Below are positions 1,447 through 56,410 of a stretch of 64,000 bases of DNA, piece by piece. Every line of letters starts with the position of its first letter. Position 1 is the stretch's first letter. A program made the translations under genes and the position numbers. The notes under the pieces were generated by a model that saw nothing but the letters and a program-made list of their open reading frames with translations, did not search any database and had not been told where the DNA came from. Origin of the DNA: Nostoc sp. HK-01 (GTDB lineage Bacteria > Cyanobacteriota > Cyanobacteriia > Cyanobacteriales > Nostocaceae); contig AP018320.1 in NCBI GenBank assembly GCA_003990705.1, forward strand, positions 124,001 to 188,000. Direction: 5' to 3'.

Positions 1447-1622
1447 GTGACTCGGCTTTACGAGCAGGGTGCGGATGTAGAACGCATTGAGACATATATT
1501 CGGCGGTGGTGGCTGTGGGTGAATTGTGGGGTGTTTTTAGGTTGCACGGGTGGGGTGGTTTGGTGGGTTACTTGGTTAACGCACCCTACAAGATCAGGCG
1601 ATCGCACTCAGGGTAGTTTAAC
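1447..1622 (+). pseudogene. Small gene remnant with basic helix and TM segment
   Basis: A GTG-started frame has a plausible charged amphipathic stretch (RLYEQGADVERIETYIRRWW) and a hydrophobic segment (about residues 26-44). After that it runs into DNA complementary to the end of the DUF4157 gene on the other strand. It looks like the 5' part of a small gene cut off by the arrival of the effector gene, but I cannot name the family. There is no clear ribosome binding site, and it could be spurious. Confidence 0.25.
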
Positions 1623-5888: not shown

Positions 5889-6382
5889 TTGGCTGGCTTG
5901 GGCAAATGTACAGTGACCAATTAAATGACGTTGAGACAAATTCGTGTCATCGAGTTAAGCCTTAACCACTTTAGGCTTGCAACAAAGCCGTATTGATATA
6001 GCTTGCAAGTTTCTACTGCTACTTTTAAGCTTAATGCTCTTTGAGTGCAAGCTTTACATCCTTTAATCCATGTTTTGGTTGATTAATATTAATTTTTCAT
6101 AACCCATTTTGAATAATAGAAAATAGATTATAAAGAATTTATTGATTTTATAATTTTGTATATTTAGCTTCCAAAATTTCTATTTAAAAAAGCAGAAAAT
6201 CAAAAAAACATAAGCTATTGATGCTGCAAAGCTTATTTAATAATGGCTATTTTTTAAGTATAGCTAAATCGTGGTAACAATTGTTATGTCATTATTGGGA
6301 ATAGTACCACGGGTTTATGCTAAATTTTAACTCTTAGGGTTAATAGTCATTAAACTTATTCAATTATAACAAGGTGCCAATT
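5889..6382. other. AT-rich leader of the giant gene
   Basis: About 490 bp without a credible frame, very AT-rich between 6090 and 6370. It presumably contains the promoter for the 6.4-kb gene that follows. AAGGTG at 6371-6376 lies 6 bases before the ATG at 6383 and sets that start. Confidence 0.4.
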
Positions 6383-33073: not shown

Positions 33074-34747
33074 TTAGATATTAGTTTGAATCATAAAACT
33101 AAATTTTTTTAAAATTAAATTTTTTCTGGCTTCAATAAATTGCTGATAATTATCTAATTTCCACAGTTCTGGCTCTTTAGGAATTAGATGTAAATCTAAA
33201 TAGCTATCATCTTTGCCACTAAACCATTGTTCAGGGAGAATATCTTTCTTACCTCCAGCACCATTTTCTTTGGCAGTTAGTAGCATACAGTTAGCAATCT
33301 GGTCACGGTCAAATTGCAGATATTTAAGGATGTCTTTGCGTCCTGTATTTGGATTAATTGTTTTAATTTTGCGTAGTACAGATTGAGGAAAAATATGATC
33401 AATCTGTGGTAAGTTAGCATAATAGGCTGGATAATAATCAAAACGTTGATACCACAGATTCAAATATATATGAATATATTTAGAAGAATAATGTTGTCCT
33501 AAAATATTCGATTCTGTAATTTCTAAATTTCTGCCATCAGCACGAATTACACCAAATAACTGCTTGACATCAAAATCTTCAGCTTCTTTGATTTTTTTAG
33601 TTAGTTTATCAATTAATTTATCAGGATTACCACTGAAAGCACCTGTGAGTAAGGTTCTTAAAATATAGGTGTCTAACTGCTGAATACTAGACCACTTTTT
33701 AGGATAATGATAGCGAAAATAAATTATGGGAATTAATGCCAAGTAAGAAGGAACAGCTTTATCAGTTCGTAGGAAAGTTTTACCTACCAAGAAATCTTTG
33801 ACATCTTTGATGGCATTAGCTATGTTACTCCAATTTTTGCTGATTTGCTCCTTAGTTACTCCATCTCTAAACTTTTTAACATCATACTGTGCGCCTTTAT
33901 CAAGTAGAGTAATGCAGGTTTTGAGAATGAAGTCTCTAGTAAAACTATAACCGTTACGATTTAGTTCATCTATTAAATCTTCTAACTCTTCATCAGCATC
34001 ATCCCAGCTGACTGTTAATAAAGAAAAAAGTAAATCAGACTTACCTAATTGAGTTCCACCAGAATTGGCTCTAATAAAAATCTCTACAACATCATCTTCT
34101 TGATATGCTTGTGGGTTATCAATGCTATCTAGTTCTTGATATATTAAAAATTCAGATGAACAAAATTGGTTGATAATTAATGCAATATTATCAAATATTC
34201 TGCTTTTCTCTTCATTAGTTAAATTGCCATCAATATTAATAATTGATTGAGCTATTATATTAAATTTATTGTGATTGAAAATAATATCTTTCAATTTAAC
34301 GAAAGGAAATTTAGCAATGTCAGGATTTAAAAACTTAAATTGATAACGTATATCTTCTGGTGTAACTAAATCTCCACTCAGAACATTAAAAAATAATTCT
34401 TTCTTTTCATAACTACCTTTTAAGCCAATAAACATAGCTTGCAACCGTTGTTGACCATCTAACACAAGTAATTTAACTTGGTCATTTTCAGTAACATAAA
34501 AATCTAAAAGTTTCAAACTTTGTTTATAATGGTCAATAAACTTACGGCACTTAATTTTGGCATTTGTGCGCCACACTAAGAGAGTGCTAATTGGGTATTC
34601 ACGCATAATCGAGTCAAATAGCCGCTCGATTTGTTCTTCTGACCAAACAAAGGGACGTTGAATATTAGGTAGCCAAAAACCACCATCTTTTTCTTCATTG
34701 TTGAGGTAAGTAACGATTTTACGAATAGTTTCTTTTTGAGTTTTCAT
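33074..34747 (-). CDS. DUF262/HNH protein (GmrSD-like type IV restriction)
   Basis: A 557-residue protein. The N-terminal DUF262 domain has NIQRPFVWSEEQIERLFDSIM, LLVLDGQQRLQAMF and IFIRANSGGTQLGKSDLLFSL, which are the NTP-binding ParB-like motifs of GmrS. The C-terminal HNH nuclease has IDHIFPQSVL near residue 450 and NCMLLTAKENGAGG. Fusions of this kind cut modified (for example glucosylated hydroxymethylcytosine) phage DNA in characterised members, or act in other defence systems. It lies in the same stretch as a helicase and the pPIWI-RE operon, consistent with a defence island. Substrate modification is unknown here. Confidence 0.85.
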   Translation of the reverse strand: MKTQKETIRKIVTYLNNEEKDGGFWLPNIQRPFVWSEEQIERLFDSIMREYPISTLLVWRTNAKIKCRKFIDHYKQSLKLLDFYVTENDQVKLLVLDGQQRLQAMFIGLKGSYEKKELFFNVLSGDLVTPEDIRYQFKFLNPDIAKFPFVKLKDIIFNHNKFNIIAQSIINIDGNLTNEEKSRIFDNIALIINQFCSSEFLIYQELDSIDNPQAYQEDDVVEIFIRANSGGTQLGKSDLLFSLLTVSWDDADEELEDLIDELNRNGYSFTRDFILKTCITLLDKGAQYDVKKFRDGVTKEQISKNWSNIANAIKDVKDFLVGKTFLRTDKAVPSYLALIPIIYFRYHYPKKWSSIQQLDTYILRTLLTGAFSGNPDKLIDKLTKKIKEAEDFDVKQLFGVIRADGRNLEITESNILGQHYSSKYIHIYLNLWYQRFDYYPAYYANLPQIDHIFPQSVLRKIKTINPNTGRKDILKYLQFDRDQIANCMLLTAKENGAGGKKDILPEQWFSGKDDSYLDLHLIPKEPELWKLDNYQQFIEARKNLILKKFSFMIQTNI

Positions 34748-35233: not shown

Positions 35234-37867
35234 TTAAATCAATGATTCTAACGATGCTGACCAGTTACAGTTTTTCTGTGAACATCCTACATAAATACCT
35301 TTATAACTTTTGTAAGTAATTGCTTGTTGCTTACAACTTGAACAGTTGATTTTCATAAATCTCATTAATAGGGTTGTGTCTTTTTCATTCATTTTCCTTC
35401 GAGAATGGTTAGGATTTTTAGGACAAGTAATATAAGCTCCATATTCAGTGCGGCTATACCAACGAGGTTGTTTACACTCTGGACATTGACCAAACGGATT
35501 TTCACCTTGACTAATTTGAGTAGTTATAGAACCTGTATCTTGTTCAGGCACTAAGCGTAAAAAGTTACATAACAATTTTGTAGTTTGGGGTAAGTCTATC
35601 CGAATAATTGGTGCTAATGATGAATTCGGATTTAAATATATCCATAAACACTTTCCGTCAATACCAACTAACCCAATATTAGTGTTAGCTTTATTATCCC
35701 AAACACGAGTATTTTGTAACCCATTAGCAATAAAATTACGATTTTGACCTGTAATAAAAAATCTAACGCTACGAGAATTACACCGCTTTAATGTGGCAAT
35801 AGAAAATGGATTATTGTTTGTTGAGCTTGACCAAGCTATGGCTATTTCTTCCTTAGCTGTAAGTAAGTCTGACTGTATTTGTTTTAAAGTATCCTGACTC
35901 TTAGAGAAATAAGTTACTCTAGGTAAATTTATGGGAGGTTCCAAAGTCCATGTGAGTGATTGAATATCTGCTTGAGCATATATACGATCAACAAATTTCC
36001 GAAAAATGTTGAAAGAGTTAAGCTTTTGCTGGATATATTGATAGTTAAACAAACCAATAAATTTTCCCTGCGCTCTGCTAACAGCAACATTGGCAAGCCG
36101 CATAGCTGTACTTTGTGTTCCACCTACAACTAGTTTTCCTGCATTAGCTTGAGGTGAACCTTCAACAGCATCAAAAATAATTAAATTCTGTTCAGCCCCT
36201 TGGAAGCGATGAACTGTACTACATCTTATGGACTTATCAGTGAGGGATAAATCCTTCAAGAAACATTGTATTAGACGAGCTTGAGCATTGTAAGGAGCAA
36301 TGATACCAACACTGCAATCATTCCTTTGGCTACTTTGGTAAGCCAAGTTAACTGCTATTAAAGCAGAGATGATATTAAAACGACTATGGGACTGCTGTTC
36401 CTTAAAACAATAAGCCGACAGTTTGCTCAAATCGTACAGTATTAGGGCTGACCCTGGATGTGGATGACTCTGAACAATGGGCATTGTCCTTTGCGCCACA
36501 CCAGAACCATCTTGCAATTGCCCATCGTAAAAAAGCTGATTTGGAATTTTAGAAATAGCTGGATTCATCCGATACTGGGTTTTTAACAGCACCATACGCG
36601 AGTCAGTTTGACCCCTATTTACCTTAAGAGTAATACCAGCTTCGTCAAAAATATCTCTTTCTAACCATTTCTCGGTGTTTTCTGTCTGGGCTTGTGAAAT
36701 AGGCCCTAGCTGCCGAAAGTCTCCGAAAATAGCAATACGCTGATTAGCTCAGGTACTGACATAAACACAGTGGGGAATATAAGCCATACTTGCCTCATCT
36801 ACCACTATTGCATCAAAGCGACGTTGGGAGATTTCTTGAGCGATCGCTGCCTTTGAAAAGGTACAACCAACTACCACTGCTTGTTTAACTAATTGAGATT
36901 CTTTCTGCTTTAGCTGATGTTTTAAGGGATGCAAGGCCCTTTTAACAGTTGCAATATCATTTTGAATTGTTTGGCGTTGCAGTTCGGTTAGCTTTTCAAT
37001 ACGCGATCGCTTGACTAACTCTTTACGTTGTTTTTCTAAACGTTCAATTTCTTCTATTAATTTTGGATTCTGCCGACGTGCCACGCCTCTAACGTGTAGC
37101 TGTGGAAACTCTTTTAAGCTTCCTGGGGTGACAACTCCATAGCGCAACACTAACCCGTTTTCATAAACAGGCGCACCTTGCACATACTTCGCCACACTCT
37201 CCATTGCTGTATCAACAGCTGTGTTACTATGCGCTATTACTAAAACTGATTCACCTGCTTGAACTAATGCGCTTACTGTTAATCCCAAGGTTTTAGTTTT
37301 TCCTGTTCCTGGCGGCCCCCACACAAAGCTGACTTGGCGGCTAATTACCTTATCAACAGCAGACTTTTGGTATTCATTGCACTCTATAGGCTGTTGTAAT
37401 CGCTGCTCAATTTGGTTTATTAACTTCTGGCTATCACTTGTTGGAAAATTTGGTTCATTTTTATCTCCCAGCAATATTTCTGCTAAGTTTCTATTAGCTC
37501 CTTTTAGGTTAGAGCTTTCTAGTAGTCGATTCTTAAGCTCCTCCAATAAAAACCAGGGAGATGTGTAAAGTATTGCTGTAGGAATCGAATCTCCTAAATT
37601 TTTCTCTAGTGCCAGAATAATATCAAAACCTTCAACAGAGACTAAAATCCCTTTATATTTTGTCTTTTTATATTCTAAATCTACAGGTGTATCATCAGGG
37701 AAGCGTATTTCGCTATCTGTCGTAAATGAATATATATAGTAACCGCCGCGTTTACCTAGTAATCTACCATCACTTAAAAATGTTTTTTGTCCACCACTCT
37801 TTCTTAACGCTTTAATTTCATCTTCAAGTGCTTTAGTAAAATGCTTTTGATATTCTAGATAGCTCAT
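35234..37867 (-). pseudogene. SF1 (UPF1/DNA2-like) helicase with in-frame TGA
   Basis: One continuous frame interrupted only by a TGA at 36749-36751. The N-terminal half carries GPPGTGKTKTLGL (Walker A) and VVDEASMAYIPHCV (motif II). After the TGA the frame continues as ANQRIAIFGDFRQLGPISQ (motif III), KTQYRMNPAIS (IV), SVGIIAPYNAQARLI, TVHRFQGAEQNLI (V) and NVAVSRAQGKFI (VI). A C-terminal region of PLD-like look is followed by two zinc ribbons (CPECKQ, CSSCKQ). So the gene is whole except for one codon, perhaps CGA to TGA. Start is taken at the ATG 37867 with AGGGAT upstream; a TTG at 37906 is possible. It is a likely defence-island helicase, now inactivated, unless the stop is read through or is a sequencing error. 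Confidence 0.85.
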
Positions 37868-39084
37868 TGATACATCCCTGAAATTCCTATCATTCGGGTG
37901 GGACAAATAACTTATTTGTTTCTACTTAATCAGTATTATTGAAGCGGTTGCAAAAGCCTCTGCCACAATCTTGTTTAACGCTGCTTGTCATCATTAGTCC
38001 GAACAGTCAGGAAAATCGCTTTCTTCAAGTAAATTGCGATCGCTACTTCCTGATACGAGTCAACCTTGTATAAAATAGTTTACGTGACAGCCTAACATAG
38101 TGTTGCATATAAAAAAGTATTACCACCACAGGGTATTCACTGCCTTGTGGCTTATAAGTGCATGGATGATGTCAGCACAATATCTAAATTTAGAATTCGT
38201 TGATCAACCTAAGTTCCACGCAATCTTATCGGTATAGGTGCTGAGAAATCCAATTCTGTAGATGTCGGTTGTTAATTGCTACGGGCTAGAAGTGACTGTA
38301 GAGATCGCATTATCTTGGTATTGTTTGTAAATTTTCACAGCATAGTTGTCGAAACATCGTGACTTTGCAGGAGTACCTCAACACTCTCTTTGATAGTCCA
38401 GTCAAATTTGACGTTGCTGTGGATGGTTTTACAGACTTGTTACGGGCGATCGCTGGAATTTCGACAGTTCAGCTTACACCAAACTCCAGAAATAAAAAAT
38501 AGGAATAATAAACCTGACTTAACAAAGATAAATGGGTATTGAGCCGAGATACAAGTAAAAAGCAGCAAGATGGTCTGAAAAGCCCTGCTGTATATAAGTT
38601 TGAGCGTTTTTAAGGCGAAAGTAGGATTTTGAGAGAAGATACTTGCAGTTCGAGGGTCAATAATTGCTTTTCGCCTACCACAGAGAATTATAAATACTGT
38701 GTGGTTGAAATGAATATAACCTTTTCCCTGTAAGAGTTTCAGACAATTCATTGTGACAGATATCCATTGTCCAAGCTGTAAAACCTGTAAATAAAGTTAA
38801 TAGATACTCCGGTTTTTGTAGCCATAGATACCCAAGATTTCTACCAGGATGTCAATTTCACTTGAAAATTGCTGAAAGCCTTATCTAGTAAGAGTTTCCA
38901 GACCATCTTGCAGCTTTTTACACATATCTCGGCTCAATACCAAATGCAGTGTAGCTGCCATGTATGGCATTTCTTAATAAAAATGGAAACATCAGAAACA
39001 TTATAGAAACATTGCAAAACTTTCTTGACCATTAGTGAGATAAATGCCAGAATTTATCAAACAAAAACGAGTAGGAGTTACTCG
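37868..39084. other. Long intergenic region before the pPIWI-RE operon
   Basis: About 1.2 kb. A GTG frame at 38359-38502 (MTLQEYLNTLFDSPVKFDVA) looks like a 47-codon gene fragment. The DNA at 38440-38760 has decayed-looking frames that may be old transposase sequence, but I could not match a family. The operon promoter must lie in the last few hundred bases; no clear -10/-35 was identified. The SD of the first operon gene is in a small hairpin loop (39068-39084). Confidence 0.35.
39068..39084 (+). promoter_or_regulatory. Hairpin with the ribosome binding site in its loop
   Basis: CGAGTA and TACTCG pair around GGAGT, immediately before the ATG at 39085. The Shine-Dalgarno sequence is exposed in the loop, which may tune translation of the operon's first gene. 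Confidence 0.45.
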
Positions 39085-40398
39085 ATGAAAGTTACTAGAC
39101 ATCGAGACAAAATTTTGGCAGCACTACAAGAATGGTTTCGCATTCATAAAGAAGCACCTACTTTAGAAGAACTCTGTACTGAGATGGGAATGCAACCTCG
39201 TCAGAAAGCAACATTACAACGCTGGTTGCAGACAATACGAGGTATCGATGTGGAATGGGAAGATAATGCGGCCCGTAGTCTTCGCTTGCTCACCCCTGAC
39301 CCAGAAGCCGACCCTGGACTAGAGATATCTGTAACGGAAACATTGCGGTATTTAGCAACCGGTTTGGCAGAGTGGGAAAAACGAAACCCAGAACAGAGTT
39401 TACATATTCCAAAAGGCCTCCGCTTAGGTATGTCCAGGATGTACTTAACATCTTTGCTCTCAGGGGATGAACAAGCCCCTTCAAACCTTCCAGAGTTTTT
39501 TGATTGGGCGAAAAAACCAGTTGTTCAATGGCAACCCGCAGCAGAAATTAAACACTTATCGCCAGAAGTCACCTTAATAGAAGATGGAATAATTTCTGAT
39601 TTTGCCCTCCAATGGCAAGTTACAGGTTTTGATGTAGAAATGCAGGTGCAAGAGAAAGTCCTGCAAGATGTTCTGGAATATTGTCGGCTAAACCAGTTAG
39701 AAGATGCCTATCGCGCCTTACGGAAACTGGTTATCGAGCGTCCTATCCTTCCCTACTCCGAATACTGCCGTCTTCTATCTTCATCCCAACTTAGACCTCT
39801 ACGCGATTTTTTATTGCAAATTTATGTAGATTTGGTTGAACTAACCAGTGACAGTGCTTATCACTTCTGCCCGCGTTGCAAATATGTAATGCGCCGTCGC
39901 CAAGACGGGACTTATAACTGTCGAAACATGACTTGTGAACAGCTGAGTGCAAAACTTCGTCTCCCGTCCCAATCACCAATTCCCAAACATGAGGCAGAAG
40001 GTTGGAAAGCAGTTACCCCTGGTGTGCATCGGTACGGCACACTACCAGGAATTTGGGAAATTCAGTTAGCCGAAGCCCTCACAAAAATGGGAGTGCGTGT
40101 GACTCTTTGGCCTGAGATTGATAAATTCGACTTACTTGTGGAATTTAGTAAAAAAGTCCGATGGGCGATTGATGTCAAAGATTGGTCGTACCTCGATGAA
40201 CAGCGTTTGAAAGAAGTAAAGTATCGCTTTGATACAACTGAAACCTTTATTGTCTTCCCCGATGAGCGAAATGATGTACTGCGAATTGAGGTGGAACGTC
40301 AAAGACTAGAACCCGAATTAGAAAACGTGCGCTTGAAGCTGGTTAGCGAAATTATCTCCCAAGCTAAAAAAATTCTGGAGAAGAAAAACCATGCGTGA
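39085..40398 (+). CDS. pPIWI-RE-associated REase protein
   Basis: A 437-residue protein, first gene of the pPIWI-RE operon. The start is the ATG at 39085 (GGAG in a hairpin loop) rather than the TTG at 39025. The N-terminus is a winged helix (HRDKILAALQEWFRIHKEAP, then LQRWLQTIRG). A zinc ribbon near 260-285 has FCPRCKYVM and CRNMTCEQL. The C-terminal PD-(D/E)XK nuclease shows WEIQLAEALTKMG, then FDLLVEF (about 347) and WAIDVKDW (about 362-368), giving E, D and DxK. It matches the REase and Y-type component described for these loci. Its stop overlaps the start of the helicase gene, so the products are made together. It probably cleaves target DNA. Confidence 0.75.
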   Translation: MKVTRHRDKILAALQEWFRIHKEAPTLEELCTEMGMQPRQKATLQRWLQTIRGIDVEWEDNAARSLRLLTPDPEADPGLEISVTETLRYLATGLAEWEKRNPEQSLHIPKGLRLGMSRMYLTSLLSGDEQAPSNLPEFFDWAKKPVVQWQPAAEIKHLSPEVTLIEDGIISDFALQWQVTGFDVEMQVQEKVLQDVLEYCRLNQLEDAYRALRKLVIERPILPYSEYCRLLSSSQLRPLRDFLLQIYVDLVELTSDSAYHFCPRCKYVMRRRQDGTYNCRNMTCEQLSAKLRLPSQSPIPKHEAEGWKAVTPGVHRYGTLPGIWEIQLAEALTKMGVRVTLWPEIDKFDLLVEFSKKVRWAIDVKDWSYLDEQRLKEVKYRFDTTETFIVFPDERNDVLRIEVERQRLEPELENVRLKLVSEIISQAKKILEKKNHA

Positions 40399-43300
40399 CA
40401 TTTCTCAATGGGCCAAGCCATTACGTCAAGCCCTTCGCAAATCACAGGAATTAAAAGCTTACATAGAAGAGAAATTGCCTGATGAGGCTAATCTACAGCA
40501 ACGCGAAATAAAACGTCTTGCCCTACTGATTGCTGAGGTGGAACTAGGATTGACTTTATTGATGGAGGTAGCTCCAGAAGAAAGCGCAGCTTCGGTATCA
40601 GCATTGCTTTTAGGATATCGTTTCCCTATCAAAGCACTAGAAAGTAATGAAAACTGGCTGCTTATACAAAAAGCGCGTTTTTACCTAGTACGCCGCAAAG
40701 GAAGGCAATGGCAACGCTCTTTGGCTGAATACATTGATTTACCTGAGATTGTAAGAATATTTAGCCTAACTGATATTAGCGATATTCCCCAGTGTATTCC
40801 ATCTAGCACCTACCCCCAACGTTTGCAACTATATCGCCAAACCCTATCAACTACTCCACAACACGAAAAGCGAAAAGTTAAACTAGCAACTTCTGGATAC
40901 TGGTATACCAAAGTTTCTGACAATGGTCACTCTCCAGTAGAGGTTCCCATCAATATTCCGGAAACTGTTGCTAGGCTTACACCCTCACCACAAATATCTT
41001 TTCAGCGCACGCGTCAGGCTGTTAACCCTAGCTATACCGTTACTTTAAAACAGCTATGGGAAACTGCCCAAGAAATGGATGAAAAATTGGCTCAAGCTGG
41101 GTATGAGCCAGAAAATTATTATCAACGTCTTAAAGGAATTACCTTCAGTTTATATGACTCATCAATAGATGATTTTCAAGCTTCTCAACCAGACACCGAA
41201 TTGAAATTAGAACAACTTGTCCACATTGTCGGTTTATTAAACGTGGGCAAATCTACAATCCTTGAAGTTCTTATTTACCAATCTGCTAAACAAGGGCATC
41301 GCTGTGCATTGCTTGTCAATGATGTTGTCGCAGCAGTGCGTATTGCTTCCCTATTCCGGGATGGGTTGGGAATTCTTGCAGCCCCTGTGTTAGGAAACAG
41401 CGATCGCTTCCATCAGTTAAAAAAAGTTTATGAACCCATTTTGAAAACTAAAGGAGAAGAAATAGAAACAGGAGCAATCCATCCAGCATGGCGCTGGTTT
41501 AGCCCAGTATGTCCACTACTGGCTTTAGTTCAATCAGAGCATAAATGGGAGTTTGGTGACGAACCTTGCCACAACCTTTATCAGAAACAAACTCTTACTA
41601 AAAATGTTACTACCAACGCAGAAGATGAGGAAGAGTTAGAAGATTTGGAGGAAGGAGAGACTGAAGATAAATATACTTGTCCCTTTTACTATAAGTGTCC
41701 ACGTCACCAACTAGAACGAGACATAGCCCAAGCTATGCTATGGGTATTAACTCCCGCCAGCTTTATTCATACTCGTGTTCCTCTTCAAGTTTTGGCAGAA
41801 AAACTAACTTTCGCTGAAGCCGTTTATCGTGAATGTGAGTTTCTTTTTGTTGATGAAGCAGACAGGGTACAGGTGCAGTTTGATGAAGCTTGTGCGCCTG
41901 ACGAAGTTTTAGTGGATGCCTCCGGAAATTCTTTATTAAATAAGTTAGGACTCAAATTTGCTACTACCATTTACAACTCGGATCGCCGAAGCATGGCAGC
42001 AGAATTCGTTGCTGCGGCAAAAAGAGCTAATGATTACGCTCAAATTGCAACAGACCTGATTCTCCCTCGACTCCACAATCAGCCAAAACTTGTGGAATGG
42101 GTGGGACAGAACCCCTTCACAGGTCGTTCGCTGTTCGCCCATATTATCCGCGATATTCTGGAAACACCTGAAACTAACGAAAAAGAATTATCTCCCCAAT
42201 TCAGCCGAGCGGAACGCAGCAAACAAAGGCATCAACGAATCGAGTCTGGTTTACCTCCTGAAGAGGAACGCCAGCGCCGTAAAAAAGTTATGCAAACATT
42301 AGAGGGATTTTTGCAAACTCCCCTTAATCCACGTAAAGGAGGGGAACTTTCAAACCTTGCCTTAAGTCTACTTAGTGCTGAAAATGAAGTATTGGCTTTA
42401 ACTGAGGTTGCTGACTGGTTGCACAGATGGTTGGAATCTTTAGGGATTTTTATTCCAGAAAAAACTAAGTTTGAAAAAGTTAAGCACCATATCCACTTAG
42501 CTATCCTCGTAACGGTACTCAACGACAGATTGGGTTTCCTAGTTGACAATCTCAACGCACTCATGAGGGCGCGAGTCATTGATCTACACGATACTAGTCT
42601 GGCTTTAGTGTATCGCCCACCCCGTGACTATCTCCCAGTTGTGCCATCCTCACCAGTTGGCAATATATTAGGCTTTAGATATACCCGTGAGCGCAGTAAC
42701 AAATCTGGTGGGAAGTTAGAGTATTTCCGCTACGTTGGGATTGGTCGCTATTTACTCCTTAATTTCTCTACTCTGTTTGCTGTTGATGCTTGGCAAGGCC
42801 CCCATACAGTGCTAATTTCAGGTACGAGTTACGCTCCTGGCACACCTGCTTATCACATCAGAACCAAGCCCACTATATTGCTAGAACCTGCTAGTGATAA
42901 TGGCACTGCTGGTGATGCAGGAATTAGCGAAAGTGAATTTTTCTTCAAACCTCAACAAAACACATCAGGACGTTATATTGCTTTGTCAGGACTGCCACCT
43001 GATGAGAGGAAGAAAGCTGCTGATGATATGGTTAAAGCTATTTGTCGCACTACAGGGCAAGCCAAAAGCTTTATTGCTGAATTATTTGAAACATTACAAC
43101 AGAAGGAACAGAAAGACCCAAAACGCTGGGGAGATCGCCAACGCTTGCTGCTAATTACTAACAGCTATAACGAAGCAGAGTTAGTTGAATCAACTTTAAA
43201 ACCCTTTTACCGCATTGAACATCTTGATGGCATTACTACCCTGCGCCGTGACAATGCTCCATCTCACTTGAGTGGTATTCGCCGGGGAAAAATTCGGGAT

Positions 43301-43930
43301 GTTGCCAAACTCCCTATCCAAATTGTCGTTGCTCCTTTAATGGCATTAGAACGTGGCCACAACATCCTCAACGAGAACCGCATCGCTGCATTTGGGGCGG
43401 CGGTATTCTTGAGCCGACCAATGCCAGTTCCAGATGATTGGCAAACCACCGTTCAGCAACTCAATAATTGGGCGTTGGAAAAGTCTGAAGATTTTAGCCT
43501 TTATCAAGCACTGCAAAAACGAGGCGACGATCTCACGCTGACGAATATAGAAAATGAATTCTACCAATATGCAGTCGCAAAGATGCTTGACTTGAACTGT
43601 CGAGCAATGTCCTTCAAACAGTTGACCCGTGATGAACGGTCTGTACTCTGCTGGACTCAATTCGTAAGTATTTGGCAAATTGTTGGGCGCTTAGTACGGG
43701 GTGGTGTCCCCTGCATTGTCCATTTTCTGGATGCCAAGTTTGCACCGCAATCCGTTGACAGCCAACTCGATAGTGAAGTTACCTCACTTTTAGTTGGCAT
43801 TATCCAGGAACTTCAACTTGCTATTGATGCACAGAGCAACCAACCTTGGGAAAAAACATTAGCCAAATCTCTCTATGGTGCTTTCTTCAACGCACTCAAA
43901 CAAACAAAGGATTTACGCTATGACCTTTAA
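40391..43930 (+). CDS. pPIWI-RE-associated DinG/XPD-like helicase
   Basis: An 1179-residue SF2 helicase. Walker A is GLLNVGKST (281-289), an unusual version. Four cysteines between motifs Ia and II (374 in VCPLL, 393 in EPCHN, 430 in YTCPF, 436 in YKCPR) fit the 4Fe-4S cluster of XPD/DinG enzymes. Motif II is VDEAD (487-491). Later blocks are LISGTSYAPGTPAYHI, APLMALERGHNIL, and WQIVGRLVRGGVPCIV (motif VI). The N-terminal 270 residues correspond to the Z-type region of pPIWI-RE loci. It would unwind DNA or R-loops for the nuclease partners. It overlaps the REase gene by 8 bases. Confidence 0.8.
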   Translation: MRDISQWAKPLRQALRKSQELKAYIEEKLPDEANLQQREIKRLALLIAEVELGLTLLMEVAPEESAASVSALLLGYRFPIKALESNENWLLIQKARFYLVRRKGRQWQRSLAEYIDLPEIVRIFSLTDISDIPQCIPSSTYPQRLQLYRQTLSTTPQHEKRKVKLATSGYWYTKVSDNGHSPVEVPINIPETVARLTPSPQISFQRTRQAVNPSYTVTLKQLWETAQEMDEKLAQAGYEPENYYQRLKGITFSLYDSSIDDFQASQPDTELKLEQLVHIVGLLNVGKSTILEVLIYQSAKQGHRCALLVNDVVAAVRIASLFRDGLGILAAPVLGNSDRFHQLKKVYEPILKTKGEEIETGAIHPAWRWFSPVCPLLALVQSEHKWEFGDEPCHNLYQKQTLTKNVTTNAEDEEELEDLEEGETEDKYTCPFYYKCPRHQLERDIAQAMLWVLTPASFIHTRVPLQVLAEKLTFAEAVYRECEFLFVDEADRVQVQFDEACAPDEVLVDASGNSLLNKLGLKFATTIYNSDRRSMAAEFVAAAKRANDYAQIATDLILPRLHNQPKLVEWVGQNPFTGRSLFAHIIRDILETPETNEKELSPQFSRAERSKQRHQRIESGLPPEEERQRRKKVMQTLEGFLQTPLNPRKGGELSNLALSLLSAENEVLALTEVADWLHRWLESLGIFIPEKTKFEKVKHHIHLAILVTVLNDRLGFLVDNLNALMRARVIDLHDTSLALVYRPPRDYLPVVPSSPVGNILGFRYTRERSNKSGGKLEYFRYVGIGRYLLLNFSTLFAVDAWQGPHTVLISGTSYAPGTPAYHIRTKPTILLEPASDNGTAGDAGISESEFFFKPQQNTSGRYIALSGLPPDERKKAADDMVKAICRTTGQAKSFIAELFETLQQKEQKDPKRWGDRQRLLLITNSYNEAELVESTLKPFYRIEHLDGITTLRRDNAPSHLSGIRRGKIRDVAKLPIQIVVAPLMALERGHNILNENRIAAFGAAVFLSRPMPVPDDWQTTVQQLNNWALEKSEDFSLYQALQKRGDDLTLTNIENEFYQYAVAKMLDLNCRAMSFKQLTRDERSVLCWTQFVSIWQIVGRLVRGGVPCIVHFLDAKFAPQSVDSQLDSEVTSLLVGIIQELQLAIDAQSNQPWEKTLAKSLYGAFFNALKQTKDLRYDL

Positions 43931-44041
43931 AATCATTTGGCAATCTTTTTTCTTGGTCACAATCTTAGGGAAAACCCTAGCTGAATCCCTCTAGAGTGCT
44001 TGTTTCGATTTACAGAAAAAATGAAAGATAGGAGTTAAATT

Positions 44042-46876
44042 ATGCCTTTTAAAATCAAAAGCATCCTCCCCGGAGCTTGGGAACTTACTAAGGATGAACA
44101 ATACGAGCTTTTTTCTCTCCAAGTCCCTAGTGCATGGCAGCAAGTCGCTCAATCTCTGGCGCAAAAACGTGTCAATTTGCTAGGTAGAGGTTATCCCTCC
44201 GTTCCCGTCTACTCCCTCGACCCGATTATAGCTGCGAGCTTTCCTAAAATCATTCAGACAGTGCGTAATGGCTGGCAACGTCCCGGTGTACCTTGGATGT
44301 TAGCAACAGAACGCGCTGACCTTTTCAACTTGCCTAACTTGATCAAAGATTGGTTGCGTGAGGAATTTAGCTATTGTTTAGGTGATGATGAAGTCGAATC
44401 TATTCTCAACAACCTCGATGATAATGTTTGGGAATGGGAAGAAAAATCAACAGTTTATCCTTTGCAACTTACACCAAATAACCCATACAAAATAGATATT
44501 CGTTGGAAGGCAATACCTGATTATCTGGCTGTGAAATTTCTCAAGAACCCACAAGTCACTTTTGGTCAAGATAATCTTTATCAACTCACTTTTTACCAAG
44601 TAGTAAACCTGAACCAAGGAGCCGAACTAGTATCGTGGCCTCCTCATCAGATTTCGCTAATTAAAAATAAAAAACAAGTTGGTACAGCCAATATATCATT
44701 TGTCATTAATTTCAAGTTGCAAACAGTTCCTTGGCGCAGCCAGCCAATAATTTATCATCAACTTTCGATTCGGCGATGGCTCACTGAACCTATGGAACGC
44801 TGGCCTTATCGTGGTGCTACCGTTTTTATTGGTCATGAAAGACGGTGGTTGGATGGTCAAAAACAACCATTCTGCTTTATTCCTCTGTTGATAAAGCAAA
44901 TTACAACACAAGAAGGACGAAAACCAAGATGGCCAAGAGCTATTAGTGAATTACTTAAAATTAATAGCTCTCCACTCCCTGACCTTGATAGTTTAACTGG
45001 TGAGCCAGTTTACAATTGGTCTGTGTTCGGTACTCCTCCAACTGGAATACAAGCTGCTATTGCTTATAATTCTCGACATTCAGTTAAGTTTCCTTGTTTT
45101 CCTGGCGTGAGTCCGCTAGATTTAGCTAGTTTAGATAGTGCTATTAAAAATAAGATTGAGCAAGAAAATTTACCATTTCGCCGTCTAGGTGAAGGAATAA
45201 GAAAATCAGGTAAGTATACACCTTTTTGGGAACCAGTAAAATCGCAAAAAGAAGGTAGTCAAAAACCTAACAATCCTGATGATTTATCTACGCCAATGTT
45301 GCGTCCGAAAATTGCTGCCCCCGCTACGTTTCGACACACTGAAAGCTCTCCTCATACCATCCTAATTTTGTGGGAAACCCAAAAATGCCGAGATGCGCTA
45401 ATTGATGAAATTTGTAAATTACTTTCCATCTCCCCCCAAGGAGAAACAATCAATTACGAAACTTTACCTGGGTTAACAGGAAAAGAAACCATTTATCAAA
45501 ATCAGGATGTATATTTGCGGATTATAACTCAGCACGTCTCAGACATAACAGCAAGACTAGATGTTGATAATCCTGAAGTTGAAGGCAATAACCGACAACA
45601 AAAACGTATTAATTTGATAGACAAACGTGTTCATCAGATTCTGTCATATTTACCCGCACCAGAAGGATTAAGTGGTGCTTTAGTGGAAATTAAACCAAAG
45701 AAATATTTCTTCCCACCGGAGTCAGATCCAAAACTTGCTGTGCGAATTGGCGTAATGCAGGCTGGCTATGTTAATCAGCATATTCATGCTTTAACAACAT
45801 CTAAAAAAAATGATGAAGAATACATTACAAACAAATCTCAAAATCGAGTGCAAAGAGCAGTATCAGACTTATTACGACAATTTGGAATTTTACCTGCTCC
45901 TCTCATCGAATTTGGAAAAGATGGCATAGATCCAAATATGTGGCTGACTTGTTTTTATGTTTTACGCCGTACTCGAAAAACAACAGCCAATAATCAAGCT
46001 TCAATTGTAGCATTGATGGTACGAGTCAACCCAATCAAAGGAACGGTACAGGTCACTACTCCTAATTTATTCACTACACAAGGTTGGGTATCGTATTCAG
46101 AAGGATTGGGATATTTACTGGGTGAAAAATGGGAACCTAATACCTATGCTGATGAAACAACTGGTGATACTAGCGATGCACAACAATCTAGTGATACCAA
46201 AAGTGAACAGAAGTTTCTCAATAAATTCGTGACTGATTGCTTGCGTGATTGTTTAAGTACATCAATTGAAGAGAAAACACTTCCCCATGTGCTGTTTATG
46301 GCGGAAGCTATCAATGCCCGTTCAATGCTGACATGGTTAAAAAATCCCCAACTACCAGCTAACAATTTACCCGATGAACTAAAACGGCACATGACAGAAT
46401 CGGAATTAAATCGGCTTTCGGTTGTGCGGTTAAGAGTTCCAGGTGATGGTGAAGTTCCCGTTGCTATTGCTAAGGATTCTCCTGGTAGCAGAACTAATGG
46501 TTTATTCTGCTGGCAGGATGTGTGCGATGATGAGGCGAACGTACTTTATTTCAGCATAAGAAAGCTGTTAAATACTGAGAAAGGTACAAATACATTACAA
46601 CAGAAACAGTCCCGACTTGATAATGGAGCTTTACAAGCAGGCAACCCAAAACCGTTAGAAATAGCTGTTATTCATCACCCAGGTATTGAACACGATCAGT
46701 TAGCTTGCTTTGTGCATAATCTTAGAGATCGATGGCCATATTTTGCTAATGAGGTTTCTTTACCGTTACCTTTTCCGTTTGCAACTTCAGCCAAACAATA
46801 TGCTGTGAGTGCTAAAGATAAAGTGGAATCTGTTGACTTGGAAGAGGAGGAAGATTCAGACGAATCTGTTGATTAA
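44042..46876 (+). CDS. pPIWI-RE family PIWI/Argonaute-like protein
   Basis: A 944-residue protein, third gene of the operon (111-bp gap, AGGAG site). The N-terminal X region (DUF3962-like) includes FPKIIQTVRNGWQRPGVPWM. A MID-like region near 430-500 starts HTILILWETQKCRDALIDEI. The C-terminal RNase H-fold (DUF3893-like) has WLTCFYVLRRTRKTT, ASIVALMVRVNP, and HVLFMAEAINAR. It also has the family's invariant Arg (SVVRLRVPGDG, about 795) and Glu (PLEIAVIHHPGIE, about 872). The tail is acidic. PIWI-RE proteins were defined by comparative genomics as prokaryotic PIWI relatives that probably use a nucleic-acid guide against plasmids and phages. Whether this one cuts is unclear, and the target is unknown. 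Confidence 0.8.
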   Translation: MPFKIKSILPGAWELTKDEQYELFSLQVPSAWQQVAQSLAQKRVNLLGRGYPSVPVYSLDPIIAASFPKIIQTVRNGWQRPGVPWMLATERADLFNLPNLIKDWLREEFSYCLGDDEVESILNNLDDNVWEWEEKSTVYPLQLTPNNPYKIDIRWKAIPDYLAVKFLKNPQVTFGQDNLYQLTFYQVVNLNQGAELVSWPPHQISLIKNKKQVGTANISFVINFKLQTVPWRSQPIIYHQLSIRRWLTEPMERWPYRGATVFIGHERRWLDGQKQPFCFIPLLIKQITTQEGRKPRWPRAISELLKINSSPLPDLDSLTGEPVYNWSVFGTPPTGIQAAIAYNSRHSVKFPCFPGVSPLDLASLDSAIKNKIEQENLPFRRLGEGIRKSGKYTPFWEPVKSQKEGSQKPNNPDDLSTPMLRPKIAAPATFRHTESSPHTILILWETQKCRDALIDEICKLLSISPQGETINYETLPGLTGKETIYQNQDVYLRIITQHVSDITARLDVDNPEVEGNNRQQKRINLIDKRVHQILSYLPAPEGLSGALVEIKPKKYFFPPESDPKLAVRIGVMQAGYVNQHIHALTTSKKNDEEYITNKSQNRVQRAVSDLLRQFGILPAPLIEFGKDGIDPNMWLTCFYVLRRTRKTTANNQASIVALMVRVNPIKGTVQVTTPNLFTTQGWVSYSEGLGYLLGEKWEPNTYADETTGDTSDAQQSSDTKSEQKFLNKFVTDCLRDCLSTSIEEKTLPHVLFMAEAINARSMLTWLKNPQLPANNLPDELKRHMTESELNRLSVVRLRVPGDGEVPVAIAKDSPGSRTNGLFCWQDVCDDEANVLYFSIRKLLNTEKGTNTLQQKQSRLDNGALQAGNPKPLEIAVIHHPGIEHDQLACFVHNLRDRWPYFANEVSLPLPFPFATSAKQYAVSAKDKVESVDLEEEEDSDESVD

Positions 46877-47467: not shown

Positions 47468-48415
47468 TTAGACATCTGTAATTAATTGCTCTAGTTCAGT
47501 AAGAAGACTTGCAAGCTTCTGTTGCTTATTTGGATCGTCCCATACTTTAGATTTTTTTATTTTTGAAGTTACTTCCAAAAATTGAGCTTGATAACTATTT
47601 TTGTTACCCTTATTGTTTTTACCGATAATTTCTAGATTAGCTACTCGTTCTTTAATCTCGCTTAAGGACAACTTCTGTGAAATAGCTTCTTCCAGTAAGC
47701 CTTTTCGTTGTTGTTCATTATCAACACGAGCTATTACTTTAGCTTTGGTATATTCCAATCTACCTTGCCTTAAAGCTTCCAAAATATTCACTGGCATATT
47801 AAGTAGTGGTAATCGAGATGTACGAAAGCTATCTGGGGTTAACTTCCCAACCACAGCAAATACACCTTCAATTTGCTCTAATTGACGTAAAACGTTTTTC
47901 GTCAATTCATTACCACGTTTCTTAGCGTTAGCTGCCAAATTCAGTAGGGAGATAACTTCATTCTTTGGCTCCTTCAATTCCAAGGTTAACAATTCTAAAA
48001 TTCCTTCTGTCTCTTCTATGGGATTTAAGTCTTCACGCTGAAGGTTTTCAATCAAAGCGACTTGTATGGCTTCTTTGTCATCAAGTTCACGTACCACTAC
48101 TGGAACTTTTTTCAGAGCTAGTTCTTTAGCAGCACGATAGCGTCTTTCTCCAGCGACTAACTCATACTTCCCCTTTCCTATAGGGCGAACTAATAACGGT
48201 TCGAGAATTCCATGTTCTTGAATAGACAGCTTAAGCTGTTCCATTTTTTGAGCATTAAAATATCGCCTTGGTTGTACTGTAGGTAATGTAATAGCTGTCA
48301 AAGGTAGAAACTCAGCAGCAGTTTCTTCCACTACTGGTTCTTCACTAATAAAGCTGCTAAGAACACTACTACTACTAACTACAAATGGTAAATTGTCTTT
48401 TTTCTTAGTTGTCAT
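47468..48415 (-). CDS. parB: ParB-family partition protein
   Basis: A 315-residue protein. The ParB/Srx-type CTP-binding N-terminal domain shows TVQPRRYFNAQKMEQLKLSIQEHGILEPL, LVAGERRYRAAKELA (GERR motif) and ALIENLQREDLNPIEE. A helix-turn-helix region in the middle carries an extended loop. The C-terminal helices (about 255-315) would dimerise. It pairs with the ParA ATPase and binds a centromere, for which the array at 47122-47238 is the best candidate. Its start overlaps the parA end by 11 bases, so the two are coupled. A terminator follows. Confidence 0.9.
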   Translation of the reverse strand: MTTKKKDNLPFVVSSSSVLSSFISEEPVVEETAAEFLPLTAITLPTVQPRRYFNAQKMEQLKLSIQEHGILEPLLVRPIGKGKYELVAGERRYRAAKELALKKVPVVVRELDDKEAIQVALIENLQREDLNPIEETEGILELLTLELKEPKNEVISLLNLAANAKKRGNELTKNVLRQLEQIEGVFAVVGKLTPDSFRTSRLPLLNMPVNILEALRQGRLEYTKAKVIARVDNEQQRKGLLEEAISQKLSLSEIKERVANLEIIGKNNKGNKNSYQAQFLEVTSKIKKSKVWDDPNKQQKLASLLTELEQLITDV

Positions 48416-49190
48416 TGGAACTGTCTAATTGTTTAGCAATTTGATTAAGTATATTCAACGCACTATTCCCTGGTGAAAAAACGGCTAGGGGTTGGTGTGC
48501 GGCAGAAGCATTAGCAAAGTCAGTTCTTCGAGCAATGGCTGGATATACTTGCGAATTTTGAAAGTTTTTATGTACCTTTAACTGCTCGAAAATAGCCTGT
48601 ATTGCTTGTAAAGCATTTTTTCCCTGCACTGTACGTTCATCGTACATAGTCGGTACTGCACCAAGCACCTGTATGTCACGATTTACCTTTTTCACTAAAT
48701 CTGAAATGGTCTTTAGCAAAAACATTGTTCCTTCAACTGCTTTATATTCAGTTTGTATTGGAATCAAAAGTTGTGTTGCTGCAACTAAGCACATAATACT
48801 TAGTAACCCAAGGCTAGGTGGACAGTCTAACAAAATAAAATCATATAAGTTTTTTACTGGTTCTAATGCGTCTAATAGTCTGTATTCACGTCTAAACTCC
48901 GTAACTAACTGCATCTCTGCCTCACTCAAAAAAATATTCGATGGTACAAGATCCACATCATGGATTTGCCGATAGAGTGGTAAATCCTGTTGGCTAATCA
49001 GGGCATCACGAATTGTATGTTCAAGTTCAAAAGGCTTCAATCCCATAAACGTAGTGAGCGATGCCTGCGGATCTATATCAACCAGTAATACTCGTTTTTT
49101 AAGCATTGCTAGGTGATACCCCAAATTCATCGTTAAAGTTGTTTTACCAACTCCACCAGACTGGTTAAATAAAGCAATAATAGCTGTCAC
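48405..49190 (-). CDS. parA: ParA-family partition ATPase
   Basis: A 261-residue ParA/Soj-type ATPase without an N-terminal DNA-binding extension, so type Ib-like. The P-loop is NQSGGVGKTT (9-18), followed by VDIDPQASLT, LLDCPPSLGL and TMYDERTVQGKNAL. The signature Lys of the deviant Walker A (KGGxxK) is Ser here, although the catalytic GKTT is intact. ParA forms nucleotide-dependent patches on the nucleoid that segregate the ParB-bound plasmid. It is the promoter-proximal gene of a two-gene operon with parB. Upstream is about 850 bp of largely non-coding DNA. Confidence 0.95.
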   Translation of the reverse strand: MTAIIALFNQSGGVGKTTLTMNLGYHLAMLKKRVLLVDIDPQASLTTFMGLKPFELEHTIRDALISQQDLPLYRQIHDVDLVPSNIFLSEAEMQLVTEFRREYRLLDALEPVKNLYDFILLDCPPSLGLLSIMCLVAATQLLIPIQTEYKAVEGTMFLLKTISDLVKKVNRDIQVLGAVPTMYDERTVQGKNALQAIQAIFEQLKVHKNFQNSQVYPAIARRTDFANASAAHQPLAVFSPGNSALNILNQIAKQLDSSNDN

Positions 49191-54956: not shown

Positions 54957-55052
54957 GTGTTTCAAGAAGAAATTCGGCGGATTTGGGAATACCTGCGTGA
55001 CCGTAATGGTGGTAGTAGTAAAGCCGAATTAGCAGAACACAACTACTTTTAA
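54957..55052 (+). pseudogene. C-terminal gene fragment
   Basis: The plus-strand frame reads VFQEEIRRIWEYLRDRNGGS and continues SKAELAEHNYF before TAA. It may be the lost C-terminal end of the SNO-type methylase-helicase, the rest having been deleted, but this is only a guess from position and strand. Its stop overlaps the dnaB stop region. Confidence 0.35.
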
Positions 55053-56410
55053 AACCCCCGACCACGAGAGAGATTCTTGAAGGAGATAAATTGATGGTCA
55101 AACAAAAGCTTGACTGTACCAGTAGGGCCATTGCGTTGCTTGCGAACAATTAACTCAGCAATGCCACGATCTGGAGTATCTTCGTTGTACATTTCTTCGC
55201 GGTAGAGCATGATCACAACATCGCTGTCTTGCTCAACAGCACCACTGGAGCGCAAATCGCTGAGTATGGGGCGTTTATCGTTGCGGTGTTCAACTTCACG
55301 GCTTAACTGGGATAGAGCCAGGACTGGAACATCCAAATCTTTGGCGAGTTTCTTTAGCCCTCGGCTGATTTCGGCAACACGTTCAGTCATATTTGCCCTG
55401 GAGTCAGCAGCTTCAGCCATCAGTTGCAGATAATCAACAATCACAAGCCCAACACCACCGTAATGAGATGAAATTCGGCGGACTTGGCTACGGATTTCAT
55501 TGAGAGAAGGACAAGATTCGTCATTGATGAAAATCTGTTGTTCACTCAGTTGAGCGATCGCCCCACTCAAGGGTTGCCATTGGCTATCAGAAATAGCTCC
55601 TCTTTCGAGAAAATTGTTTTCAATGCCAGATTCGCTGCTCAAGAATCGTTGCGTGTACTCGTCAATTGACATTTCTAAACTGAAAACGCAAATCGGCAAC
55701 GTTCCAATTTTGGCAACGTTAAGGGCAAGATTACCAGCCAATGCAGATTTACCAACAGAAGGACGAGCAGCCAGCACATACAGCCGCCCTTTACGAAAAC
55801 CACCGCCGAGTATACTGTCCAGGTCATAAAATCCAGTAGACAGTGCTGGAGAAACTGTACCAGCATGACGCGCCTCAATTTCAGTAAAAGTGTTAGCTAA
55901 GGCATGAGAAATGTGAACTAAATCACTCTTGTTCTGTTCTGAAGCAATGCCGTAGACTTTTTGCTCGGCTTGGTCAAGGACATTGGTGAATTCGGCTTCG
56001 GTGGCATAGCCGAGTTGAACAATTTCAGTGCCGGCTTTGATCAACTGCCGCCTTTGGTATTTTTCCATAACCAAATCAGCCAAAGCATCGATGTTCACGG
56101 CTGTGACTGTGCGATCTACCAGTGTGGCCAGTTTATTGCGCCCACCGATGCGGAACAACAACCCATTGTCAGACAACCAGTTGGTGATACAGAGTAAATC
56201 AGTTGGTAGTCCCTGGCTGTACAGCCGTTGTGCGGCTTGATAGATATCCTTGTGGGCATTGACGTAAAAAGCATCTGGTACTAAGCGATCGCTGATTCGG
56301 TTCATAGCAGCAGGGTCAAGCATAATGCCACCGAGAATTGCTTCTTCAGCCTCAATGCTTTGTGGGGGCAAGCGGTCTTGTTGTGATGTGAAGTTTAGTT
56401 CGTGTGTCAT
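55049..56410 (-). CDS. dnaB: Replicative DNA helicase DnaB
   Basis: A full-length 453-residue DnaB. The N-terminal domain (about 10-110) has RLPPQSIEAEEAILGGIMLD and DAFYVNAHKDIYQA. The RecA-like domain has LSTGFYDLDSILGGGFRKG, Walker A ARPSVGKSALA, VFSLEMSIDEYTQR, Walker B LVIVDYLQLM, LALSQLSREVEHRNDKRPILSDLRSSGAVEQDSD and the C-terminal VRKQRNGPTGTVKLLFD. There are no inteins and no missing motifs. It lies directly downstream of the rep-like gene on the same strand, so the plasmid appears to bring its own helicase for loading at its origin. Confidence 0.97.
   Translation of the reverse strand: MTHELNFTSQQDRLPPQSIEAEEAILGGIMLDPAAMNRISDRLVPDAFYVNAHKDIYQAAQRLYSQGLPTDLLCITNWLSDNGLLFRIGGRNKLATLVDRTVTAVNIDALADLVMEKYQRRQLIKAGTEIVQLGYATEAEFTNVLDQAEQKVYGIASEQNKSDLVHISHALANTFTEIEARHAGTVSPALSTGFYDLDSILGGGFRKGRLYVLAARPSVGKSALAGNLALNVAKIGTLPICVFSLEMSIDEYTQRFLSSESGIENNFLERGAISDSQWQPLSGAIAQLSEQQIFINDESCPSLNEIRSQVRRISSHYGGVGLVIVDYLQLMAEAADSRANMTERVAEISRGLKKLAKDLDVPVLALSQLSREVEHRNDKRPILSDLRSSGAVEQDSDVVIMLYREEMYNEDTPDRGIAELIVRKQRNGPTGTVKLLFDHQFISFKNLSRGRGF

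Follow-up and report, generated by a model that had tools for sequence, protein, structure and literature searches.

A plasmid-borne pPIWI-RE operon of Nostoc sp. HK-01 whose PIWI protein appears unable to cut and differs in ancestry from its helicase partner

In this study, we found that a 64,000-nucleotide stretch of Nostoc sp. HK-01 (positions 124001-188000 of contig AP018320.1, here called C3; hereafter the window) carries a pPIWI-RE operon at 39085-46876, where three same-strand (+) genes with intact frames encode a restriction endonuclease-like protein (REase), a DinG-type helicase and a pPIWI-RE protein, in this order. An earlier note made from the bare sequence had described a complete three-gene pPIWI-RE operon here, and the description holds: the gene order is the published one, the X, Y, Z, MID, RNase H and REase families all match above the curated cut-offs of Pfam, the corresponding PADLOC profiles match as well, and the coordinates confirm the 8-base overlap of the first two genes. 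The PIWI protein has no aspartate at the first catalytic position of its RNase H domain, nor has any of 85 distinct relatives. Thus, the PIWI protein appears unable to cut, and the partner REase is the likely cutter. On balance, we lean towards a defence operon carried by a plasmid, in which a non-slicing PIWI sensor would direct the helicase and the REase to foreign DNA. This proposal is the 2013 model, as set out in the passages covered of PMC3702460, with catalysis narrowed to the REase.

The 944-residue product of the third gene is a pPIWI-RE protein, as had been proposed, with matches to pPIWI_RE_X (PF13111, 9.9e-72), MID_pPIWI_RE (PF18157, 6.2e-25), RNaseH_pPIWI_RE (PF13032, 4.3e-43) and PprPIWI of PADLOC (4e-114). 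Its relatives come from a census of 104 loci, of which 77 were obtained by a scan of genome contigs with a helicase alignment, using two patterns (one over Walker A), and the others are plasmid and genome loci. Filtering for near full-length, distinct proteins gave 93 REases, 92 helicases and 85 PIWI proteins. At L034, L063, L097, L109 and L110 an adjacent REase gene was not found, and thus not all 85 PIWI proteins were seen in three-gene operons. When the first RNase H position was set by profile alignment to 12 cyanobacterial prokaryotic Argonautes (pAgo), all 12 showed GLD or GFD where the window protein has Tyr639. Among the 85 relatives this position is occupied by Tyr (26), Trp (24), Thr (11), His (6), Cys (6), Ser (6), Phe (3), Arg (2) or Ala (1), and never by Asp, although locus L075 has an Asp a few columns further on. 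The second position, E755 in the window, is Glu in 42 relatives, Asp in 22, His in 11 and other residues in the rest. In this profile comparison, the MID-PIWI half is linked to cyanobacterial pAgo (one pair compared) with a probability of 78% and an E of 1.8e-5 in local mode, and 95% and 1e-8 in global mode. The conserved Arg and Glu noticed earlier in the PIWI-like RNase H region are likewise real, with two candidates for the Arg: R796 is kept in 80/82 ungapped rows, R798 in 76/82 and E873 in 79/81. Lacking the first catalytic aspartate, the PIWI protein should not itself slice. Taken together with the invariant REase site (93/93) and helicase motifs (92/92) described below, its absence from 85/85 PIWI proteins implies that clear nuclease potential is kept in the REase only.

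The REase matches pPIWI_RE_Y (PF18156, 7e-15), pPIWI_RE_REase (PF18154, 2.7e-22) and PprRE of PADLOC (2e-28). Its E325, D349, D363 and K365 are invariant in all 93 relatives, and the four zinc-ribbon cysteines are kept in 93, 87, 77 and 87 of them. Among the features previously read from its sequence, the zinc ribbon and the DxK motif are thus present and conserved, but a winged helix was not recognised in the window protein itself; among relatives, L031 gives LexA_DNA_bind at E 0.0015, below the Pfam cut-off, and the distant L013 gives a MerR HTH at 1e-12. The helicase matches pPIWI_RE_Z (PF18155, 2.3e-23) and PprDinG of PADLOC (8.3e-148). The four Fe-S cysteines and the VDEAD motif that had been pointed out are present and conserved; Walker A, the DE pair, the four cysteines and two arginines are kept without exception in 92/92 relatives, which is in part a consequence of the search design, as one pattern of the pair spanned Walker A. 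Up to E 0.1 the helicase had no match to any general Pfam helicase family, and its assignment to DinG is therefore based on PprDinG, on the Z domain and on its motifs. Against solved structures, profile searches gave only short Walker-region matches for the helicase, and no credible structure for the REase or the PIWI protein.

From these features we infer how the three proteins might work as a complex. Without cutting, the PIWI protein would either bind the 5' end of a short guide in its MID pocket or read an RNA-DNA hybrid. Once a matching hybrid or R-loop had been recognised on invading DNA, the Fe-S helicase would be loaded and would unwind or translocate, and the PD-(D/E)xK REase would then cleave the DNA. 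The plasmid would benefit if competing plasmids or phages were excluded from its host. The conservation of Gln579 (78/85) and Arg612 (74/85) in the MID domain fits binding of a guide 5' end. Alternatively, the PIWI protein may read RNA-DNA hybrids or R-loops directly, with no stored guide, and targeting would then depend on the mode of transcription or replication rather than on sequence. A hybrid sensor of this kind was proposed by Burroughs 2013 (PMC3702460, passages covered), and both the absence of the catalytic Asp in 85/85 PIWI proteins and the lack of any Rfam match in window 28-52 kb at E up to 1 agree with it. We nevertheless consider guide-free sensing distinctly improbable, given the two conserved MID residues and the short RNA guides that PsPIWI-RE used in vitro according to the parts covered of PMC10991935.

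Systems of this kind are thinly and patchily spread, which we count in favour of a defence role. RNaseH_pPIWI_RE occurs in 9/292 cyanobacterial, 1/369 gammaproteobacterial and 4/246 actinomycete genomes (centre genomes counted), and once in the genome of Nostoc sp. HK-01. The order REase-DinG-PIWI holds in every locus where all three genes were found. A tblastn search of PLSDB with four query proteins yielded 21 distinct plasmid records from Nostocales, Azospirillum, Bradyrhizobium, Microvirga, Cupriavidus, Streptomyces and Hymenobacter. Fifteen of the 21 were inspected, 14 with a feature table and the fifteenth without features listed in the stretch; in 12 of the 14, a REase-sized gene, a helicase-sized gene and a PIWI gene follow each other, while Azospirillum ramasamyi has its PIWI gene divided into two features and in Hymenobacter the gene is broken up. 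Such carriage fits, without proving it, the earlier suggestion that the system is used against competing elements. The window PIWI protein had no match among phage records at E 1e-5.

The replicon itself is apparently a circular plasmid, in agreement with the earlier note, because a 297-codon frame spans the junction of the end and the start of C3 and because ParA and ParB are encoded 0.6 kb downstream of the operon. C3 is 311,696 bp long and belongs to a 7.5-Mb genome in 8 contigs. The stretch at 47-64 kb has piecewise matches to 17 plasmid records and that at 28-47 kb to 21, nearly all from Nostocales and none covering >80% of the query; a plasmid-borne dnaB gene (55049-56410) is one of the shared pieces. 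A search of the genome for a TrwC relaxase gave no match. Other defence systems on the same plasmid, which we also count for a defence role, include a type I Zorya system (ZorA at C3:96909-98888, with ZorB and ZorC among the C3 proteins) and a CRISPR-like array of 17 repeats (C3:102249-103414). Within the window, a GmrSD-type protein (GmrSD_N and GmrSD_C; PADLOC HEC-05, E 2e-100) is encoded at 33074-34747 (-), 4.3 kb from the operon. The adjoining SF1 helicase gene (AAA_11/AAA_12, 35234-37906, -; MkoA-type PADLOC match) is interrupted by one in-frame stop. The claim that the operon lies beside other defence-type genes is upheld in part. On Aulosira plasmid AP018308, the SF1 region finds a single match of 2.6 kb at 83%, which lies under one annotation as 'superfamily I DNA/RNA helicase'.

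The closeness of the operon to parAB also counts for the chief rival explanation, in which the operon would serve plasmid housekeeping (maintenance, decatenation or copy control) by acting on R-loops or replication intermediates, and not defence. Elsewhere, Fremyella plasmid08 has a ParB gene and a ParA-type gene (annotated as cobyrinate synthase) 1-3 kb downstream of its copy, and a ParA-family gene lies upstream in a Nostoc TCL26-01 plasmid. DinG-type helicases act on R-loops (PMC3702460, passages covered), and in the parts covered of PMC10991935 knocking out PsPIWI-RE raises sensitivity to ciprofloxacin about 15-fold and causes filamentation under the drug, a phenotype that suggests this rival. 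Proximity to parAB is, however, expected by chance on small plasmids, and the patchy distribution, the absence of a fixed neighbour, the conserved PD-(D/E)xK nuclease and the copies on chromosome-sized contigs of 6.4-7.1 Mb (G125, G042 and G167, the G042 copy being broken) all speak against housekeeping, which we judge unlikely.

Several points weigh against a non-slicing sensor with a role in defence. Glu or Asp at the second catalytic position in 64/85 PIWI proteins means that some residual metal site is possible, and PsPIWI-RE of Pseudomonas stutzeri, as described in the parts covered of Huang et al. (2022; PMC10991935), cuts by itself with catalytic D525 and D610, taking DNA as target with RNA guides and RNA with DNA guides, and affects ciprofloxacin survival. 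The invariance of the helicase is partly built in, and the helicase matched no general Pfam helicase family. No experiment showing defence by a pPIWI-RE system was found in a full-text literature search, most subscription journals and all preprints being outside its scope. The neighbours of the window operon are mostly not common to its relatives. Finally, defence-type families turned up both among the neighbours of the operons (one open reading frame (ORF) of at least 150 aa per side where present; 140 proteins from 77 loci, 130 scanned, the ten omitted being from L087, L096, L097, L106, L110 and L111) and among the control proteins (110/110 such ORFs from C3 outside the window, L015-L027), and enrichment is not established with a control plasmid that is itself defence-rich. 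The PsPIWI-RE data further raise the alternative that the window PIWI protein, as a counterpart of PsPIWI-RE, does cut under guidance and binds its metal through non-canonical ligands. PsPIWI-RE is encoded beside dinG and loses activity in D525A and D610A (same source). The window protein does keep the second acidic position, but with the first-position Asp absent in 85/85 relatives and present in 12/12 cyanobacterial pAgo, we regard an active PIWI nuclease as very unlikely.

Judged by DNA identity and gene trees, the operon is a mosaic, in which the PIWI gene differs in ancestry from the helicase gene and the switch falls at the gene boundary. The helicase DNA is 88.8% identical to the copy on an Aulosira plasmid (L010) and 80.7-81.6% identical to those of a Nostoc group (L036, L037, L038, L040 and L051, with L051 filed as Nodularia and L040 as Trichormus), whereas the PIWI DNA is 77.3% identical to Aulosira and 88.6-90.2% identical to four intact Nostoc-group copies. 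The changeover in sliding identity falls between ~43.7 and 44.1 kb, with the megablast similarity to Aulosira ending at 43,937. The helicase data reject a grouping of the window with the Nostoc group (approximately unbiased (AU) test, p 9e-6), and the PIWI data reject one with Aulosira (p 4e-8). A second discordance lies inside the Nostoc group, where the helicase tree joins L040 and L051 and rejects L036 with L051 (p 5.5e-4), and the PIWI tree joins L036 and L051 and rejects L040 with L051 (p 7e-35); all these p-values are optimistic, because the clades were named after the identity tables had been seen. The REase DNA, with 86.3% identity to Aulosira and 82.7-84.7% to the Nostoc group, sides with the helicase in ancestry, though not significantly (support 68/87 only; alternative not rejected, AU p 0.18). 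Conflict among the gene trees is limited over the clade (24 loci). Helicase and PIWI trees contradict each other in 2/12 supported splits for the C-terminal half of the helicase and in 1/11 for the N-terminal half, and REase and helicase N-half trees in 1/7; no contradicted split was seen between the halves of one gene, nor between REase and PIWI.

Discordant ancestry of helicase and PIWI is thus seen twice, once in the window and once inside the Nostoc group. One may speculate that the PIWI gene is an exchangeable recognition cassette, such that a resident effector (the helicase, probably with the REase) takes over the PIWI gene of a relative at the gene boundary and thereby changes its recognition, although this step from ancestry to recognition is a hypothesis that we hold to be quite doubtful. 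No report of PIWI exchange, or of a comparable active-site census, was found within the scope of our literature search.

The gene boundary concerned bears a scar. Helicase and PIWI genes are 111-255 bp apart in the window and the Nostoc group, but there is no linker in Aulosira and in two Calothrix plasmids, where the two genes share 11 bp. The linker contains a decayed second copy of the helicase 3' end: it resembles the 3' end of the helicase gene of its own locus more than do 500/500 mononucleotide shuffles in each of 6 loci, and the linkers of L036 and L037 still read AKSLYxACFNVQ...KDKELNYA, compared with AKSLYGAFFNALKQTKDL.YD in the helicase gene itself. Linker folding was no better than that of shuffles. 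An unequal crossover joining a helicase gene to the tail of another helicase gene with its PIWI gene would leave such a linker, and a simple tandem duplication would leave the same one equally.

The features of the locus are collected in Table 1. The ORF tool had placed the REase start at a TTG at 39025, which is the -35 hexamer of a predicted promoter, and we take the ATG at 39085 as the start. The consensus scan gave 18 promoter-like hits against 18.2 in shuffles and so is by itself no proof, but TTGAC lies upstream of the REase start in 20/23 rows (window included); L031 and L053 are without it, and the L062 row starts at TGAC. An upstream sequence common to many plasmids was considered as an origin or guide RNA and rejected, as it is a 412-bp element resembling a miniature inverted-repeat transposable element (MITE) at 38531-38942, with ~43-bp inverted ends and AAATG on both sides, 142 bp ahead of the REase ATG. 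A 691-bp query spanning it matched 94 places in 32 plasmid records, among which the Aulosira record matches only the operon's own upstream region; C6 and C7 of the genome carry partial copies. We also rejected a palindrome that covers the ribosome-binding site, since it is not conserved among relatives.

Table 1. Features of the pPIWI-RE locus and its surroundings in the window
Feature	Position	Strand	Description	Basis
Predicted promoter	39025..39053	+	sigma-70-like: TTGACC, 17-bp spacer, extended -10 TGCCAGAAT	consensus scan, conservation
REase gene (PprRE)	39085..40398	+	437 aa; N-terminal HTH-like stretch, Y domain, zinc ribbon, PD-(D/E)xK nuclease E325/D349/D363/K365	PF18156, PF18154, PADLOC
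DinG/XPD-type SF2 helicase gene	40391..43930	+	1179 aa; Z domain, Walker A G281-K287, Walker B D488-E489, Fe-S C374/C393/C430/C436, R1100/R1103	PF18155, PprDinG
Linker	43931..44041	+	111 bp; decayed second copy of helicase 3' end	gene coordinates, peptide comparison, shuffles
pPIWI-RE gene	44042..46876	+	944 aa; X domain, MID, RNase H/PIWI; Y639 at catalytic Asp position, E755 second; R796/R798 and E873 conserved	PF13111, PF18157, PF13032, PprPIWI
ParB gene	47468..48415	-	partition protein, plasmid backbone context	PF02195 6e-32
ParA gene	48405..49190	-	partition ATPase, plasmid backbone context	PF13614 1.3e-51

The MITE-like element just upstream, the stop-interrupted SF1 helicase next door and broken copies in relatives (e.g. 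L032, L037, L064 and L111) might suggest that the operon is non-functional cargo in decay. Yet its three frames are intact, the predicted promoter lies downstream of the MITE-like element and is intact, and dN/dS against the nearest relatives is 0.09-0.13 for the REase (dS saturated in 2/7 pairs), 0.09-0.12 for the helicase and 0.15-0.28 for PIWI. Decay therefore seems extremely improbable to us, and the three frames look to be under purifying selection (0.09-0.28 with unsaturated dS, close relatives). The operon may thus be called intact, as it was earlier, with respect to its frames but not to its RNase H catalytic site.

Some further observations were made on the relatives and on the plasmid. 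PIWI or helicase genes are in pieces in L032, L037, L055, L064, L082, L097, L111 and L140, so the system seems to be often lost, and a Tolypothrix plasmid (NZ_CP050443, L150:8001-8105) retains a 105-bp orphan PIWI 3' end at 93% identity with no other PIWI-gene match in the record. In alphaproteobacteria (Azospirillum, Microvirga and Bradyrhizobium) the PIWI frame runs on into a giant protein of ~3100-3400 aa (L120:2426-12196, L136:6899-16778 and L139:5828-15130), which in L120 has a P-loop-like stretch by eye; a WYL regulator is encoded near plasmid copies L136, L138 and L139. Tyrosine recombinases (Phage_integrase) and IrrE-like M78 peptidases, with 8/130 each, are the commonest neighbour families of pPIWI-RE operons; the 25 families shown for the 110 control proteins include neither of them. 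Elsewhere in the window, an eCIS core domain protein (PF13699, 1e-33) is encoded at 1608-3623 (-) and a 2133-aa protein without a Pfam match up to E 0.01 at 6374-12775 (+). The C3 proteins also include Cas6 and RT/Cas1-type matches.

Although pPIWI-RE systems unite an Argonaute relative with a helicase and a restriction nuclease, a single paper with experimental work on them was found in our search. Our census points to the REase, not the PIWI protein, as the place to look for a nuclease; the published catalytic PsPIWI-RE would be worth re-checking against the 85 relatives. The mosaic operons offer a natural allele set, several from cultured cyanobacteria, for asking whether PIWI sets specificity, and with 21 plasmid records, conflict between plasmids becomes a concrete hypothesis.

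In comparison with known systems, the locus is a further member of the kind described in 2013. As in the passages covered of PMC3702460, it has the same three proteins, the X, Y, Z, MID and RNase H domains, the zinc ribbon, the Fe-S-type helicase and the conserved R and E, in a strict order with overlapping or close termini (8-bp overlap and 111-bp gap). That account reports catalytic residues retained in a subset of pPIWI-RE proteins, whereas here all 85 distinct relatives examined lack the first Asp; neither the presence of such operons on sequenced plasmids nor an exchange of the PIWI gene is described in the passages covered. PsPIWI-RE, compared by its published description only (PMC10991935, parts covered), belongs to the same family and is encoded with a DinG helicase, as in the window, and with an RNase; it reportedly relies on D525 and D610, whereas in the window protein Tyr occupies the first of the catalytic positions.

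To classical pAgo (PF02171), the window protein appears remotely homologous in its MID-PIWI half, and it likely binds the 5' end of a guide as they do. It differs from them in having no match to the Piwi domain PF02171 up to E 0.1, in the absence of the GLD motif (Tyr639 being aligned to the Asp), in its N-terminal X domain and in its helicase and REase operon partners. Inactive pAgo with a separate effector nuclease are reportedly found in short pAgo systems and in RsAgo with its neighbour nuclease. The proposed working would parallel theirs, with a non-cutting PIWI sensor and a separate effector, although other protein families are involved and the window operon adds a helicase. If the PIWI gene does act as an exchangeable cassette, the likeness would be to restriction systems that swap their specificity subunits.

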